64,000 nt of DNA from Limnochorda sp. LNt. GTDB lineage: Bacteria; Bacillota; Limnochordia; Limnochordales; Geochordaceae. The DNA lies in NCBI RefSeq assembly GCF_035593265.1, contig NZ_CP141614.1:682001-746000 (forward strand), read 5' to 3'. The notes under the pieces are model-generated. The model did no database searches and had not been told where the DNA came from. It saw nothing but the letters and a program-made list of their open reading frames with translations. Shown here piece by piece: positions 14,892-21,454 of this stretch (position 1 is its first letter; each line of letters starts with the position of its first letter). A program made the translations under genes and the position numbers.

Positions 14892-16535
14892 CTACCAGAC
14901 GCGCAGTCCCGGCACCGGGGTGAACCGGGTCAGCAGGTCCACCAGGGTGGGCACGTATCCCAGCGCGGCCAGCCCCACCGCGGCACCCACCCAGAGTCGC
15001 CACCGCTCGAACCAGAAGGGCGCGTGCTCCGGCCCCGACACGGCCTCAGCCTCGGGCACCTCCACCTGGGCCGGCTCCCGGGAGAAGAAGAGGGTGGCCA
15101 CGATCTGCACGAGGTACAGGTAGAGGCTGACGGCCAGGATCACGCCGCCGACGCCCACCAGGACGGAGGGGAGGGCCCAATCGGGGCGCAGCTGGGCGTA
15201 GGTGGCGGCGCCCAGCATGGTCCGCCGGGGGGCGCCCAAGAGACCCAGCCAGTGCATGCCCCGCCCGAAGATGAGCATCCCGATGAACCACGTCCAGGCC
15301 TGTACCAGGGCCGCCTTGGGACTCCAGAGGCGTCGGCCCGTCAGGTAGGGGATGAGCCAGTAGGAGATGCCCATGAACGTGAGGGTGACCCCCGAGCCCA
15401 CCGTCAAGTGGAAGTGGCCGGGCACCCAGGCCGTGTTGTGCACCATCAGGTTGAGGTTGTACGAGGCGTTGATGATGCCGCTGATGCCGCCCAGCGCGAA
15501 GAGGATCATGGCGAACAGCTGGGCGGCCACCGAAGGATCGCGCCACGGCAGCCGGAAGAACCAGTCGAACCAGCCCCGCGCTCCTCGGGCCCGTCCCGCG
15601 TTCTCCAGCGAGGCCAGCAGGGTGAAGGCCGTCATGGCGCTGGGGAAGAAGACGACGAAGGTGAGGGCCGCGTGCACCATCTTCCACCCCTGGGCGATGC
15701 CCGGGTCGGTGAACTGGTGGTGCAGCCCCACCGGGATGGAGAAGGGGATGAACAGGAGCAGCGCCAGCCGAGCCAGCGGGTCGCTGAAGAGCTTGCCGCC
15801 GGCCTGCTTGGGCACCATGCTGTACCATGACACGTAAGCCGGCAGGAGCCAGAAGTAGACGATGGGGTGACCCGTGAACCAGAAGAAGGCCCGCGCCAGC
15901 ACCGGGTCGGTGCCCTCCACGGTGCCCAGCGACATGGGGATCAGCATCAGCAGCGACTCGACCGCCAGCCCGACGCTCGCCAGATCCCACATGACGAAGG
16001 TAACCAGCGCCCCGAAGGCGCCCAGCGGGGTGCGCTCCGTGGGATGCTCACGGCGCCACTGTCGCCAGGTCAGGAAGAGGTTGGCCGAGACCAGCCACGT
16101 ACCCACGACCAGCAAGGTGAGCCCGAAGTAGTACGCCGGGTGGCCCTTGAGGGGTGGGTAGGAGGTGAAGAGCACCGTGGCCTGGTTGGTCAGCATGGCC
16201 CAGCCGGCCATGACGACTCCCACCGTCATCAGGCCCCAGGCGAGCCAGCCCAGGCGCAAGCTGTACAACGGTCGCCTCAGCGTGGCCGAGGTGACGAACG
16301 TCAAGAAGCCGCTGATGAAGAACGTCGTCCAGACCAGGACGTTGAGCACGCCGTGCAGGCTCAGGCCCTGGTAGTAAGAGGCCAGGAATGGCACATAGCG
16401 ATACAGGTCGATCCCCATGTGCTCGAGGGCTTGCAACGGCCCCATGGACGCTCCCAGCGCCAGGGCGCCCACCGCGACGTAGAGGTGCCAGCTCACCAGT
16501 CGGCGTTGGGCGAGGCTCATCGTCACCATGTCCAT
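14892..16535 (-). CDS. cbaA: ba3-type cytochrome c oxidase subunit I
   Basis: 547 residues with about 12-13 helices. Heme-copper ligands are visible: QGLSLHGVLN (heme b His), FTGHPIVYFWLLPAY (CuB His and the cross-linked Tyr), HHQFTD (CuB His pair) and HNTAWVPGHFHLTVG (heme ligands). The Tyr in the HPIVYFWLLPAY block and the overall spacing fit class B (ba3) oxidases, which reduce O2 at low oxygen. The gene lies 4 nt after subunit II, with a small subunit and an SCO-like gene upstream, forming one operon on the minus strand. Confidence 0.93.
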   Translation of the reverse strand: MDMVTMSLAQRRLVSWHLYVAVGALALGASMGPLQALEHMGIDLYRYVPFLASYYQGLSLHGVLNVLVWTTFFISGFLTFVTSATLRRPLYSLRLGWLAWGLMTVGVVMAGWAMLTNQATVLFTSYPPLKGHPAYYFGLTLLVVGTWLVSANLFLTWRQWRREHPTERTPLGAFGALVTFVMWDLASVGLAVESLLMLIPMSLGTVEGTDPVLARAFFWFTGHPIVYFWLLPAYVSWYSMVPKQAGGKLFSDPLARLALLLFIPFSIPVGLHHQFTDPGIAQGWKMVHAALTFVVFFPSAMTAFTLLASLENAGRARGARGWFDWFFRLPWRDPSVAAQLFAMILFALGGISGIINASYNLNLMVHNTAWVPGHFHLTVGSGVTLTFMGISYWLIPYLTGRRLWSPKAALVQAWTWFIGMLIFGRGMHWLGLLGAPRRTMLGAATYAQLRPDWALPSVLVGVGGVILAVSLYLYLVQIVATLFFSREPAQVEVPEAEAVSGPEHAPFWFERWRLWVGAAVGLAALGYVPTLVDLLTRFTPVPGLRVW

Positions 16536-16539
16536 CCCC

Positions 16540-17007
16540 TCACTCGACGATGATGCGGCCGTACATGGTGTGGTGGTTGACGCCGCAGTACTCGTGGCAG
16601 ACGAAGAGATAGGTGTCCGGGCGGGTGAACGTGTGGGTCACCCTGGCGACCTGGCCCGGGATGACCATGGTGTTGACCGGGGTGTCGAGGATGCGAAAGC
16701 CGTGGACGACGTCCCGGCTCGTCAGGGTGAAGGTCACCGTGGAGCCGGCGGGCACCCGGATCTCGTTGGGCGAGTAGGCCCAGATGAAGGCGACGATGGT
16801 CGCCTCGTAGCGTCCGGGCCCCAGCTCCCGCAGACCCGGCCGGTCGAACGGCGGGGTGCTGGCCAGGGCTCGGGGATCGACCTGCCCGTCGATGCCCGGC
16901 ACCTGGATGCCCGCTCCCAGGACGGAGCCCATCACCGCCACGAACAAGACGGCCAGCGTCACCGCCGTCAGGACCATCCACCGCCGCTCGTAACGGTCGA
17001 TCTGCAC
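16540..17007 (-). CDS. cbaB: ba3-type cytochrome c oxidase subunit II (CuA)
   Basis: 155 residues: one N-terminal transmembrane helix (about 12-32) and a C-terminal cupredoxin domain. The CuA site CHEYCGVNHHTM contains both Cys, the Glu, the His and the Met, with the first His in DVVHGFRI. The short length and single helix are typical of ba3 oxidases rather than aa3. It receives electrons from cytochrome c and passes them to subunit I. Confidence 0.93.
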   Translation of the reverse strand: MQIDRYERRWMVLTAVTLAVLFVAVMGSVLGAGIQVPGIDGQVDPRALASTPPFDRPGLRELGPGRYEATIVAFIWAYSPNEIRVPAGSTVTFTLTSRDVVHGFRILDTPVNTMVIPGQVARVTHTFTRPDTYLFVCHEYCGVNHHTMYGRIIVE

Positions 17008-17021
17008 CGGAGCGCCTCCCT

Positions 17022-17237
17022 TCAGGGCATCGCGTGCGCGGCGCGCAGCAACGAGAAGTACATGTAGCCCCAGGCCGCCGCGATGACGGCCAGGTAGAGC
17101 AGTGTGGCGGCCATGGCCCCTCGTGGCCGCTCATGGGCCTCCGTCTCGGCGACGGGATGCGCCGGCGGGATGTCTCGGGCCTCGGTCGCCTCTGCCGGCA
17201 CCCTCCTGGCCGGGTGGCCGGTGGGCTGGACAGCCAT
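17022..17237 (-). CDS. Small single-helix protein, probable oxidase subunit IIa
   Basis: 71 residues from the ATG at 17237: a polar, Pro/Glu-rich N-terminal half, then one helix (MAATLLYLAVIAAAWGYMYF) and a short tail. AAGAGGGGG lies ~10 nt upstream. Its place directly before subunit II matches the single-helix subunit IIa of ba3 oxidases (CbaD-like), although the extended N-terminus is unusual. Assigned from context and topology, not from motif. Confidence 0.6.
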   Translation of the reverse strand: MAVQPTGHPARRVPAEATEARDIPPAHPVAETEAHERPRGAMAATLLYLAVIAAAWGYMYFSLLRAAHAMP

Positions 17238-17272: not shown

Positions 17273-17983
17273 TTACCGCACCGGATAGCAGGCGAACCAA
17301 TGGGCCGCGGCGTAAGCGAGGCGGGCCGCTCCCCGGGCCGCCGCCTCCCGCTGGAGCAGGGCCAGGTCCGCCGCGACGGTGGCGACGTCGAGCTGCGGGC
17401 CCCGGTACACCGCCCTGATCTCGCCGGCCGCGTCAACGAGGACGTAGCGGCTGTCGTAGTTGCCCGGCGGCGTCTCGTAGTAGACGCCGAAGCCGGTGCC
17501 GACCACCAGTTTGACGGCCAGTCCCGCCCCGGTCAGGAGGAGCCAGCGCTGCGGGTCGACCCCGACCCGCTCGGCCCAGGCCTTGAGGCGCGCCGGGGTG
17601 TCGCGCTCCGGATCGAGGGTGATGGTGACCAGCAACGGCGTGGGGGAGGCCGCATCCGGCGATCCCCGTGACCACCGATCCTGTAGAGCCAGCAGGTGAC
17701 GCGTCATGACGCTGCCCACCCGGTCGTCGGCGGAGGTGGTGAAGAAGCTGTAGAGCACGGGGCGCCCCCGCATCTGCTCGTGGGTGACGGCCCGTCCGTC
17801 GGCGTCGACGAGCCGGAAGATGGGGGCGGGGCCCAGGCGGGGCAACACCTTGACGGGCTTCGCGACGGCGAAGCCGACGACCGCCAGGGGGACCACGAGA
17901 AGACCGCCCCAGGCCCACCGCCCGGTGCGCCCCAGCTTGCCTGCCACCGGAATCGTAATGGCTCCCATTACATCTTCATTCAA
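17273..17983 (-). CDS. SCO1/SenC-like protein lacking the copper ligands
   Basis: 236 residues: one N-terminal helix (WGGLLVVPLAVVGFAV) and a thioredoxin-fold domain with SCO features (GRPVLYSFFTTSADDRVG, ITLDPERDTPARLKAWAERV). SCO proteins carry copper to the CuA site using a CxxxC motif and a distal His. Here the CxxxC region reads TTSADDR with no cysteine, and the expected His before the late beta strand is replaced (NYDSRYVLVD). Copper delivery by the normal chemistry looks impossible. It precedes the oxidase genes by about 35 nt and is probably their first operon gene. Confidence 0.8.
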   Translation of the reverse strand: MNEDVMGAITIPVAGKLGRTGRWAWGGLLVVPLAVVGFAVAKPVKVLPRLGPAPIFRLVDADGRAVTHEQMRGRPVLYSFFTTSADDRVGSVMTRHLLALQDRWSRGSPDAASPTPLLVTITLDPERDTPARLKAWAERVGVDPQRWLLLTGAGLAVKLVVGTGFGVYYETPPGNYDSRYVLVDAAGEIRAVYRGPQLDVATVAADLALLQREAAARGAARLAYAAAHWFACYPVR

Positions 17984-18067: not shown

Positions 18068-18733
18068 TTACTTTTGTCCCTGCGGGGGTGGTGCGGTCAG
18101 GTGGCCCTGGCGCCAGGCCTTGGTGGCCGCCTCGGCGCGGTTTCTGGCGTGGAGCTTGTCGAGGGCGTGGCGCAGATGGGTCTTGACCGTGTGCACCGAT
18201 AGGTGGAGCCGCTCGGCGATCTCCCGGTTGGTCAGCCCCTCGCTGGCCAGTCGGAGCACCTCCACCTCACGCTCCGTCAGGGCGGATGGCTCCTGGGGGG
18301 CCGCGTCCTTTCGGACCATCTCCTGCAGCAGCCGCGCCGCCAGTTGGGGCGAGAGCACCGCCTCGCCACGATGCACCTGCCGGATGGCCTCCAGCAGCTG
18401 CTCCTCGTGGACGCTCTTGAGCAGGTAGCCCCGGGCGCCCGCCTTGATGGCTCCGAAGAGATCCTCGTCCCGCTCGGAGACGGTGAGCATGACGACTCGC
18501 ACGTCGGGCACCACCTCCCGCACGGCGCGGGTCGCGGCCACCCCGTCCGTGCCCGGCATCTTGACGTCCATCAGGATCACGTCGGGACGGTGCAGCCGGG
18601 CCTGCTCGACCGCCTCCTGCCCGTCGGCGGCCAGCCCGACCACCTCCATGTCGTCGTGGCTGGCCAGGATCCGCCGCAGCCCCTCGCGGAAGAGGCGGTG
18701 ATCATCCACGACCAGGACCCGTATGGGAGGCAT
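18068..18733 (-). CDS. NarL/LuxR-type response regulator
   Basis: 221 residues from the ATG at 18733 (GGAGG 11 nt upstream). Receiver domain with VLVVDDHRLFREGL and the phospho-acceptor in DVILMDVKMPGTDG; C-terminal LuxR-type helix-turn-helix LTEREVEVLRLASEGLTNRE ... VHTVKTHLRHAL. The start lies inside the 3' end of the kinase gene (32-nt overlap), so the two are a coupled pair. It lies upstream of the sco/ba3 operon on the same strand and is a candidate regulator of it. Confidence 0.9.
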   Translation of the reverse strand: MPPIRVLVVDDHRLFREGLRRILASHDDMEVVGLAADGQEAVEQARLHRPDVILMDVKMPGTDGVAATRAVREVVPDVRVVMLTVSERDEDLFGAIKAGARGYLLKSVHEEQLLEAIRQVHRGEAVLSPQLAARLLQEMVRKDAAPQEPSALTEREVEVLRLASEGLTNREIAERLHLSVHTVKTHLRHALDKLHARNRAEAATKAWRQGHLTAPPPQGQK

Positions 18734-20642
18734 CGGAGGGGGCACCTCCTCTCACGGCGCTCGTGACGGCGGCTCGCTCGCGGCACGGCGCAGCGGCGCA
18801 CGGCACCGGCAGGCGCAGCATCACGCGAGTGCCCCGTCCTGGCCCCGTCGCGATGGTGAGCTGGGCCCCGATGGTCTGCGCGCGCTCGCGCATGGCAACC
18901 AGGCCGTGATGTCCGGGCGCCTGGGTGCCGGCCGGATGGAAGCCCCTCCCGTCGTCGGCCACGCTCAGCTCGAGGTGGCCGGGGTCGGCCCGGAGCCTCA
19001 CCTCGACCCGGGTCGCCTGACTGTGCTTGCGGACGTTGGCGAGCGCCTCCTGCACGATGCGCAACAGCTGCAGGTGCACGGCCGACGGCATCTCCGGCAC
19101 GGGGCCCTCGATCTCCAGATGGGCGGCGATGGGCGTGCGCTGGCGGAAGGTCTCGACGACGCGGCGCAGGGAGGTCTGCAACCCTCCGCTCTCGCCCGTG
19201 CTCGCCCGGAGGTCCTCGATGGCCTCCCGCACGTCGAGGTACGCCTCCCTGAGCACCTCCACCATCTGCCGCAGCTCCTCGGAGGCCTGGTGCATCTCGC
19301 CATGCTCGACGAGCCGAAGGACGTGACTGGCTTGCAGCCCCAGGTAGCCCAGCGTCTGGGCCAGGGTGTCGTGCATCTCCCGGGAGAGGCGATAGCGCTC
19401 CTCCACTACCGCGGTCTCCCGGAGGCGATGGTAGAGCTGGGCGTTGCGCACAGCCAGGGCAAGTTGCGCACCCAGCGCCTCCAGCATCTCCGCCTGGTGC
19501 CGGGCCAGCTGGCCGTCGTGCGTCGATCCCAGCACGGCCACTCCCAGCACCTCACCTTCGGCCTCCAGCGGCACGGCTGCGACGGAGCGCAGGCCGTGGC
19601 GGCCTCGCATCCTGGGGATGACGACCGGGTGCCTGCGCTGCTGAGCCAGCCGGGCCAGGCTCATCGCCAGGGCGGCGGCGGGGGCGGCCATGTCGCCGAG
19701 GTGACGCTGCGCCGCCACCTCCCAGGCAGGCGGGTCGCCACGTCGTAGCAGCACGGCGCCGACCTCGGCACCCCATCCCTCGAGGAGGATGGCCAGGGCC
19801 CGGTCCAGCAGGCCGTGCACGTCGTCGGGCGCGCGACCGAGCTCCCGGCCGGCGTAGACCGCGGCCGCCAGGCGGGCGCGCAGCCGCGCCCCCTCCAGGG
19901 CAGGGGCCACCTCGGCCGCCAGGACGTCCAGCAGGTGCAGCCGGTCGGGTGGCGGGGGCTCGCCTGCCGGCAGGTAGGTGGCCAGCACTCCGACCCTGTC
20001 CTCCCCGATGGCGAAGGGCAGGCAGACCACCGAGCCGATGCCCTCCCGGGTCGCGAGAGGGCCGAGGCCGGTCAGCATGGGGCAACCCGCGTTGAGATTG
20101 GCCGTCAGGGGCTGGCAGGCCCTGCAGGCCTCCGAGACGAGCCCGCCCTCGACCACTCGCCGGAGCCTGGCCGTGGCGGCGTCGCTGAGGCTCCACGTCA
20201 CCTCGAGGCCGGGCCGCCCCGTCTCCGGGTCGAAGGAGACCGCGGCCGCCCCACGGGCCCCGACGAGCTCGACGGGCACGCGTGCAGCCAGGGCCAGGAC
20301 CTCCTGCACGTCCAGCGCTCCGGCGGCTCGCTTGCCGAACTCGTGCAGCACCACCAGCCTGCGCTGTTGCTCCTTGAGGTCCGCGTAAGCCTGTCGCAGC
20401 TCCTCCTCCGCCCGCTCGCGCTCGGCCAGGGCATCCAGCAGGCGTCGCAGGCCCAGCCAGGCCCCGACGACGCCGGTGGTGCCGTACGCGACGAGCTGAG
20501 CCAGGCCGTGCCACTCGGGGGATAGATGCCGGAGGACCACACCGAGCCACGCCTGGTGCAGGGCAGCCAGGCCCAGCACGGCCAGGGGCAGCGCCCACAG
20601 GATCTCCCGCCCGTAGCGGGCGATGGAGCGCCTGCTTCTCAT
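18702..20642 (-). CDS. NarX/DegS-type sensor histidine kinase with GAF domains
   Basis: 646 residues. Two N-terminal hydrophobic helices (about 15-65), a coiled linker, two GAF-like domains (about 100-250 and 260-415), then a HisKA_3 domain with phospho-acceptor His in SREMHDTLAQTLGYL and a HATPase domain with EALANVRKHSQA and VADDGRGF. The first GAF region contains a Cys cluster, CRACQPLTANLNAGC, i.e. C-x2-C-x10-C, which could bind metal, heme or an Fe-S cluster for redox sensing. The ATG at 20642 follows the upstream HAD stop by 2 nt; a TTG at 20648 is an alternative. Confidence 0.9.
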   Translation of the reverse strand: MRSRRSIARYGREILWALPLAVLGLAALHQAWLGVVLRHLSPEWHGLAQLVAYGTTGVVGAWLGLRRLLDALAERERAEEELRQAYADLKEQQRRLVVLHEFGKRAAGALDVQEVLALAARVPVELVGARGAAAVSFDPETGRPGLEVTWSLSDAATARLRRVVEGGLVSEACRACQPLTANLNAGCPMLTGLGPLATREGIGSVVCLPFAIGEDRVGVLATYLPAGEPPPPDRLHLLDVLAAEVAPALEGARLRARLAAAVYAGRELGRAPDDVHGLLDRALAILLEGWGAEVGAVLLRRGDPPAWEVAAQRHLGDMAAPAAALAMSLARLAQQRRHPVVIPRMRGRHGLRSVAAVPLEAEGEVLGVAVLGSTHDGQLARHQAEMLEALGAQLALAVRNAQLYHRLRETAVVEERYRLSREMHDTLAQTLGYLGLQASHVLRLVEHGEMHQASEELRQMVEVLREAYLDVREAIEDLRASTGESGGLQTSLRRVVETFRQRTPIAAHLEIEGPVPEMPSAVHLQLLRIVQEALANVRKHSQATRVEVRLRADPGHLELSVADDGRGFHPAGTQAPGHHGLVAMRERAQTIGAQLTIATGPGRGTRVMLRLPVPCAAAPCRERAAVTSAVRGGAPSDASHTGPGRG

Positions 20643-20644
20643 GG

Positions 20645-21454
20645 TCAACGTCCGCCCGCAGGTCCGTGGGTGCCGCGCTCGACGACGGCGAGCACCTCCC
20701 GAAGGTCCCGGATCACCAGGTCGGGCGGGGGTCCATCGTAGGGAGCGAAGTCGCCCGACGGCGACGGCCGGGGCCTCCCATCGTCCGGGCGCTGGACCAG
20801 GACCGCGCCCATGCCAGCGGCCTTGGCTCCGGCCACGTCGGCGTGGGGGTTGTCACCCACGTACCAGGCCTCGCCCGGCGCCACTCCCAGCTGGCTCAGG
20901 GCCACATCGAAGAGCAGACGGTGAGGCTTGATCAGGCCCACCTCGGAGGAGAGCACGACCGACTCGAACGGTCGGAGCAACCCCAGCACGTCCAGGTGTT
21001 CGCGGACGATGGGGCCGCTGATCCAGATGTTGGAGATCAGCCCGAGCCGCACGCCCGCGCCGGAGAGCTGTGCCAGCACCTCGCCCACCTCGGGAAAGAC
21101 GCGCCGGATGGCCAGCCGGGGCGTCGCCCACGCCCGCTCGAGCCCGTTGAGCGCTGCCTCGGAGACGTCGATGCCGACGCGATGGAGCGTCCTTCGCAGG
21201 ACGTCGAGTGCCCGCATCTCCAGGAGGCGGGGAGCCGTCCGGGCCTGGTACTCTCGGACCGCCTGCTCGAAGGCCTCCAACAGGCGGTCCTGCGAGGGCG
21301 GCGAGCCGCTCAGGCGAGTGCCGTCGGCCAGGGGACGGGCCAGGGCGTCCCGCAAGGCGCCGATGCTGGCCCGATCCACCTCCTCCCACGAGGGGACGGG
21401 AAAACCCACCAGGGTGTCGCCGACGTCGAACAGGATCGCGCAGGTGCGTCGCAT
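20645..21454 (-). CDS. HAD-superfamily hydrolase
   Basis: 269 residues. HAD motif I is ILFDVGDTLVGF (Gly replaces the second Asp of DxD), motif II SN in GLISNIWISG, motif III Lys in GLIKPHRLLF, and motif IV YVGDNPHADVAGAK. A helical cap domain occupies about residues 20-120. The second Asp of motif I (acid/base) is replaced by Gly, as in some HAD proteins with altered activity. The first of two ATGs (21472) lacks a ribosome site, so 21454 is used. It sits upstream of the sensor kinase, nearly overlapping. Substrate unknown. Confidence 0.85.
   Translation of the reverse strand: MRRTCAILFDVGDTLVGFPVPSWEEVDRASIGALRDALARPLADGTRLSGSPPSQDRLLEAFEQAVREYQARTAPRLLEMRALDVLRRTLHRVGIDVSEAALNGLERAWATPRLAIRRVFPEVGEVLAQLSGAGVRLGLISNIWISGPIVREHLDVLGLLRPFESVVLSSEVGLIKPHRLLFDVALSQLGVAPGEAWYVGDNPHADVAGAKAAGMGAVLVQRPDDGRPRPSPSGDFAPYDGPPPDLVIRDLREVLAVVERGTHGPAGGR

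Follow-up and report, generated by a model that had tools for sequence, protein, structure and literature searches.

A tailed SCO paralog without the classical CxxxC–His site beside a ba3-type oxidase in Limnochorda sp. LNt

The SCO paralog and its oxidase operon

The window (that is, the whole 64,000-nucleotide stretch of Limnochorda sp. LNt DNA that was analysed) carries a gene for a SCO paralog that is followed on the same strand by a small ORF resembling subunit IIa of ba3 oxidases, CoxB and CoxA; every window feature given below lies on the (−) strand. The frame of the SCO paralog is open from 17273 to 17983, with a G+C content of 0.74, 0.53 and 0.90 at codon positions 1, 2 and 3. The listed ORF extends to a TTG at 17983, but the gene likely starts at ATG 17968 and ends at stop 17273 (17273–17968, 231 aa), a start that we favour because the residues MGAIT are kept in two relatives whose frames are closed by a stop immediately before them. 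The product matches the Pfam family SCO1-SenC (PF02630) at 49.6 bits (E 5e-13; cut-off 22.8 bits) and belongs to it by this measure. It matches no NCBIfam family, and NCBIfam holds none specific to the tailed subfamily described below; 67 of 71 members of this subfamily match Pfam SCO1-SenC at E 0.01. A single N-terminal membrane anchor is predicted at 17861–17929 (helix of residues 14–36 of the 231-aa protein in an AlphaFold2 model), and the segment is hydrophobic with an Arg/Lys-rich stretch on its N-terminal side.

The small ORF behind this gene (17022–17237, with its start taken at a Met inside the listed ORF) encodes a single-helix protein that is IIa-like by its position and because it resembles the small ORFs that precede CoxB in relatives; as it has no Pfam match, the name subunit IIa is a putative one. 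It is followed by CoxB (16540–17007), a CuA-type subunit II with CHEYCGVNHHTM (COX2, 42.5 bits; Thermus ba3 subunit II, 114 bits), and by CoxA (14892–16535), a ba3-type (family B) subunit I (COX1, 312.8 bits). Against PDB chains, CoxA scores 499 bits with Thermus ba3 (1ehk), 410 with 7deg and at most 69 with the other, A-type oxidases listed. An earlier reading made from the letters alone (hereafter, the sequence-only reading) had placed a SCO-like protein, in frame, in a ba3 oxidase operon; the Pfam match, the codon-structured open frame and the adjoining oxidase genes on the same strand agree with it on each point. Directly upstream, also on the same strand (18068–20648), lie genes for a NarL-like response regulator and a GAF-domain histidine kinase, which may regulate the SCO–oxidase operon.

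The copper site and the C-terminal tail

Relatives were gathered at two scales. Among the 60 nearest genomes (own included) there are 13 orthologues, 30–54% identical to the window protein, all with intact frames, all without CxxxC and all with A-H-x-F-x-C-Y near the C terminus. A scan of the species collection returned 73 loci for tailed SCOs, from Limnochordaceae and other Bacillota-labelled records, one labelled Symbiobacterium, Chloroflexi (Anaerolineae, Caldilineaceae and Ardenticatenia) and Acidimicrobiia/Actinomycetes. Two of these are dropped from all counts below that give 71 loci or 84 rows: L104, which is cut by a contig end and whose chosen frame lacks the tail, and L108, for which the canonical neighbour had been picked as the frame (L108 also has a tailed fragment). 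The joint set of 84 rows thus consists of the 13 orthologues and 71 loci.

In this alignment, the two cysteine columns of the CxxxC site of canonical SCO copper chaperones fall on Ala85 and Val89 (236-aa numbering; 17717–17731) of the sequence TTSADDRV, much as the sequence-only reading, which gave TTSADDR, had it. The column of the distal His in CXXXCXnH is occupied by Tyr176 (17456–17458), within a family F/Y-D/E-P, where canonical neighbours have HT or HS; the same reading had put a Ser at this position, which the family alignment does not support. Its description of the protein as free of cysteines also fails, as there is one, Cys232, in the C-terminal sequence AHWFACYPVR. It had further staked itself on a proper alignment placing no Cys and His elsewhere in the protein, and because Cys232 and His228 lie in the C-terminal tail, that stake is partly lost: both residues are there, neither of them at the SCO copper site. 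Judged by alignment, then, the classical CxxxC–His site is lost from the window protein. Across the subfamily, both CxxxC columns hold Cys in 60 of 84 rows, and the distal column holds His in two, one of which (L098, HEP) is probably a chance occurrence.

The tail (17276–17332) comprises an extra helix and AHWFACYPVR, and follows the stretch over which the top solved SCO folds align. Its motif AHWFAC (17288–17305) is an instance of the C-terminal AHxFxC that marks the subfamily. Cys232 (17288–17290), the only cysteine of the protein, sits five residues from the C terminus, and together with the nearby His228 (17300–17302; both in 236-aa numbering) it ranks among the most conserved residues of the subfamily. 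The tail His is found in 84/84 rows and the tail Cys in 83/84, the sole exception being L052, represented by a CxxxC copy with a distal His; the hydrophobic residues A and F of the motif are likewise conserved. Outside the membrane segment, each of the 17 distinct rows without the Cys pair has a single cysteine, that of the tail; in two of them, one more is located in or close to this segment. At least 95% of 97 canonical SCO rows have gaps at the tail columns.

As the tail was one of the two search patterns of the first collection scan, the search was redone with a tail-blind profile, from which the last 40 residues had been removed, in two sets of genomes: 199 from the class to which a Caldilineaceae record belongs and 148 from that of an Acidimicrobiia record. 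This profile, which is still built from tailed members, recovered 31 and 8 members, respectively, at 184 bits or more, followed by a gap and then by SCOs at 120 bits or less. AHxFxC is present in all 39 members, 13 of which are sequences already known; the 26 new ones all keep the tail His, Phe and Cys, and 23 of them lie outside the first scan pattern. The next-best 11 matches examined below the gap (L163–L173) have CxxxC and lack the tail.

The predicted structure of the window protein (AlphaFold2, pLDDT 92, pTM 0.85) was obtained with a 71-row alignment (A2) that leaves out L052, L104 and L108; alignment A3 omits 14 more of the proteins of the 73 loci, and alignment A4 used 35 rows. The model consists of the membrane helix, a thioredoxin-type domain, an extra C-terminal helix (residues 213–225) and the last residues. 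The domain is predicted to have the SCO-type thioredoxin fold: it superposes on the Bacillus SCO 4hde with Z 21.3 and an rmsd of 1.9 over 163 residues, on 1xzo with Z 21.0 and on human SCO1 with Z 20.0. The best matches to solved SCOs stop at residues 207–210, ahead of the tail, and among the chains listed in a PDB search with the subfamily profile, none aligned past profile position 204 of 229. The end of the tail is the least confident part of the model (its final two blocks have a pLDDT of 75 and 56); the model of a relative with the Cys pair, L045, has a pLDDT of 93.6, with 93 and 90 in its last two blocks. A tail helix folded back on the last helix of the domain, toward the active-site edge, would be compatible with the topology of thioredoxin.

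The tailed subfamily, its oxidase and its fellow SCOs

The link between the tailed SCO and the ba3-type CoxB and CoxA seen in the window extends to its relatives. Among the 60 nearest genomes, the same 13 hold both the ba3 CoxA and the tailed SCO, on the same contig and a few kilobases apart. In the wider family, a same-strand CoxA accompanies the tailed SCO in 63 of 71 loci and a same-strand CoxB in 63 of 71; the nine loci that miss one or both are all records of 3.6–8.2 kb that end at a contig end. In the Chloroflexi class of 199 genomes, the tailed SCO occurs in 31, a close CoxA in 50 and both in 29 (Fisher p 4e-19, a value that ignores kinship). The other 21 of the 50 genomes with the close CoxA are without a tailed SCO, which implies that the oxidase can form without it; six of these 21 have an untailed SCO scoring about 100 bits. 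Five relatives (G004 on C8, G010 on C51, G012 on C55, G015 on C9 and G020 on C39) also carry a second ba3-type CoxA, 48–53% identical, on a different contig from the tailed SCO.

Canonical SCOs are found in the same genomes. The genome of the window, searched for a SCO with intact ligands as the sequence-only reading had advised, holds two, both with CPDVCP and HT and both distant from the ba3 operon; one is fused to a PCuAC domain and the other lies beside Caa3_CtaG. The fusion (L174:3852-4895; C1, about 151.9–152.9 kb) scores 151.5 bits with SCO1-SenC and 116.9 bits with PCuAC, and a genome of the same genus, G001, has a similar long ORF (L026). There are two CuA-type subunits II in the window genome, the CoxB of the ba3 operon and one of A type. 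A third COX1-like gene lies at G000:C1:1291484-1292872 in an open frame of 1191 aa, and the genome search gave no COX2 match nearby. All 15 searched genomes with a Cys-less tailed copy (the window's own and 14 further ones) contain a canonical SCO. In the 14 further genomes, 21 other-SCO loci are listed, 19 with CPxxCP (at least one per genome), one with CTTVCP and one (L191) for which the script returned no ORF; 17 of the 21 have a recognisable distal-His pattern. Of 71 tailed-SCO loci, 57 have a canonical SCO on the same strand no more than 3.5 kb away; L036, which among named relatives is closest to the window, is one of the other 14. Copper might be delivered by the canonical SCOs encoded elsewhere in the genome.

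In the wider tailed subfamily, the tail is present, the Cys pair mostly remains and the distal His has almost disappeared; the window protein belongs to the part that has lost the Cys pair too. Where the pair stands beside the tail, as it does in most relatives, it takes the form CxxxC, CxxC or CxxxxC, so the tail is not a simple replacement for it. In a tree of 116 rows, made by a quick method with SH-aLRT support in place of the bootstrap, the Cys-less rows fall in two places (14 Limnochordia-type rows, SH-aLRT 84; 3 Chloroflexi rows, SH-aLRT 99). The tree topology calls for two changes, one in each group, and a single origin of the loss may still be possible. Eight loci taken as candidate Cys-less Chloroflexi (L048, L134, L135, L137, L141, L142, L144 and L148) were rejected as they contain CxxxxC. 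In two loci, L052:5344-6900 and L056:1378-2881, a CxxxC copy and a Cys-less copy stand in tandem; in both, the Cys-less copy has a full tail, and the CxxxC copy combines the distal His with a degenerate tail (AAHLVKAYP and AAHLLRWYP). This arrangement looks like a division of duties between duplicates and is possibly a transitional stage. In L091, L092, L095, L096, L100 and L101 (Acidimicrobiia/Actinomycetes), the frame of the tailed SCO extends far upstream (364–815 aa), either as a fusion or as a mere stop-free stretch in G+C-rich DNA.

Selection on the Cys-less copies was gauged by dN/dS, which is 0.37, 0.19, 0.24, 0.39 and 0.24 in five Cys-less pairs and 0.08 and 0.13 in two Cys-pair comparisons; changes are few in the first pair, and synonymous sites approach saturation in the distant ones. 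Since the five Cys-less pairs range from 0.19 to 0.39, we take the SCO paralog to be a product of neither chance nor decay, and values below 0.4 together with the conservation described above rule out a pseudogene or a frame artefact for the family.

Possible roles in oxidase assembly

The window protein can be set beside several known systems. Like SCO1/SenC/YpmQ proteins (PF02630), it is predicted to combine a thioredoxin fold with SCO features and a single membrane anchor, and is linked to a CuA oxidase; unlike them, it is without CxxxC and the distal His and has an AHxFxC helix that is nearly absent from the 97 canonical rows. ResA/TlpA thiol-disulfide reductases, which use a CxxC site, have a related thioredoxin fold (Z of about 16 between ResA and the window domain), whereas the window protein has no CxxC at that site. 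The Sco of Thermus thermophilus (2k6v) shares the oxidase type and the fold (Z 16.0), yet the window protein has no Cys pair with which to reduce the CuA cysteines. According to a passage in PMC6696091, the CuA cysteines of the Thermus ba3 system are reduced by Sco, and the copper comes from PCuAC. Excerpts of PMC3971200 and PMC6696091 describe plant HCC2 (AtSCO2) as a SCO without CxxxC and His that occurs beside a canonical SCO in one cell and, by that description, it resembles the window protein as a paralog stripped of its Cys/His site; unlike the window protein, it belongs to plant mitochondria and has no operon, and these excerpts mention no tail motif. An excerpt of the latter source, a 2019 review, calls the replacement of another SCO by a ligand-less one “very surprising” and leaves its extra role open (PMC6696091). 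In the excerpts concerned, SCO genes in B-type operons were noted earlier (PMC6431628), bacterial oxidase assembly factors are reviewed (PMC9145763) and Sco appears only as an entry in a gene table (PMC8756737). In the open-access papers surveyed, we found no report of the tailed SCO, of its tail motif (for example, AHLFLCYP) or of the paired arrangement; Cys-less bacterial SCOs have possibly been noticed before.

On the basis of co-occurrence, adjacency and purifying selection, the SCO paralog is probably a dedicated assembly factor of the ba3 oxidase, whatever its mechanism; the sequence-only reading had suggested an assembly factor for CuA insertion, and it is the assembly role for this oxidase that these observations support. 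The further terms of that reading, scaffolding or non-copper, leave the invariant tail His and Cys out of account. As to mechanism, we lean, with slightly less than even confidence, toward a paralog dedicated to the ba3 oxidase whose working site has moved to the tail, where His and Cys would be chemically active in the building of CuA. The paralog might instead act purely as a structural factor, close to the view of the sequence-only reading, in which the fold and tail dock onto CoxB/IIa or a canonical SCO and hold them, with the tail His and Cys kept for packing or protein contact and taking no part in metal or redox chemistry. The retention of the fold after both CxxxC and the distal His have gone is what such a factor would show, as are the hydrophobic A and F of the invariant tail, which suit a docking peptide, and ligand-less plant HCC2 is said in an excerpt of PMC6696091 to complement a yeast sco2 mutant; packing, however, poorly explains an invariant Cys that is the only one outside the membrane segment in all 17 Cys-less rows, and we regard this alternative as possible but doubtful.

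A different use of the same residue, which we consider improbable, is that the tail Cys carries no copper and undergoes disulfide exchange with the CxxxC of a neighbouring canonical SCO or with the CuA cysteines in CoxB, thereby holding the cysteines of CoxB or the canonical SCO reduced. The single conserved Cys fits such a partner, as does the account in part of PMC6696091 that Thermus ba3 CuA is reportedly made through reduction of subunit II by Sco while PCuAC delivers copper, but a lone Cys is not by itself a two-electron reductase, and the His and Phe, no less invariant, would have to be explained otherwise. It is most improbable that, in these lineages, the protein stays in the mature ba3 oxidase as an additional subunit: perfect co-occurrence in 60 relatives and the shared operon could be read in this way, yet the protein is a SCO homologue, it is absent from 21 of the 50 Chloroflexi genomes with a close CoxA, and none of the PDB chains listed for the subfamily profile aligned over the tail. 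That it is a decaying, functionless SCO copy, for which the lost ligands are the one argument, is scarcely credible in view of the dN/dS below 0.4, the intact frames of 13/13 orthologues and the invariant tail.

We therefore return to the reading in which the tail is the working element, which draws on homology, predicted fold, linkage, co-occurrence, selection and motif invariance. In this scheme, the membrane-anchored SCO paralog would assemble the ba3-type oxidase encoded right behind its gene, with the classical CxxxC and distal His site gone and the subfamily-specific C-terminal helix ending in AHxFxC as its working element. The SCO domain would lie on the outer side beside subunit II, where it may dock through the SCO fold and a conserved juxtamembrane segment. 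Copper binding or thiol chemistry is conceivable for the tail His and Cys; during the building of CuA they would most likely form a transient Cu(I) ligand pair, or else a mixed-disulfide thiol. Counting against copper, a His-x3-Cys pair needs further ligands to make a good copper site. The tailed SCO would presumably work in a relay with a canonical SCO and PCuAC, in an order that we can only suppose. More broadly, and tentatively, the subfamily may be a SCO branch with a relocated metal or thiol site, in which AHxFxC is essential and CxxxC–His dispensable (lost completely in Limnochordia and a few Chloroflexi), and which provides a second, oxidase-specific station of a two-SCO CuA relay.

A SCO without the cysteines was already known from plant HCC2; apparently new is the AHxFxC tail common to Limnochordia, Chloroflexi and Acidimicrobiia. 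The tailed subfamily offers a bacterial handle on the role of SCOs without copper ligands, as it forms a natural series tied to one oxidase type (Cys pair with distal His; Cys pair with tail; tail only) and, in the tail His and tail Cys, presents two residues that could separate a chemical from a structural role.
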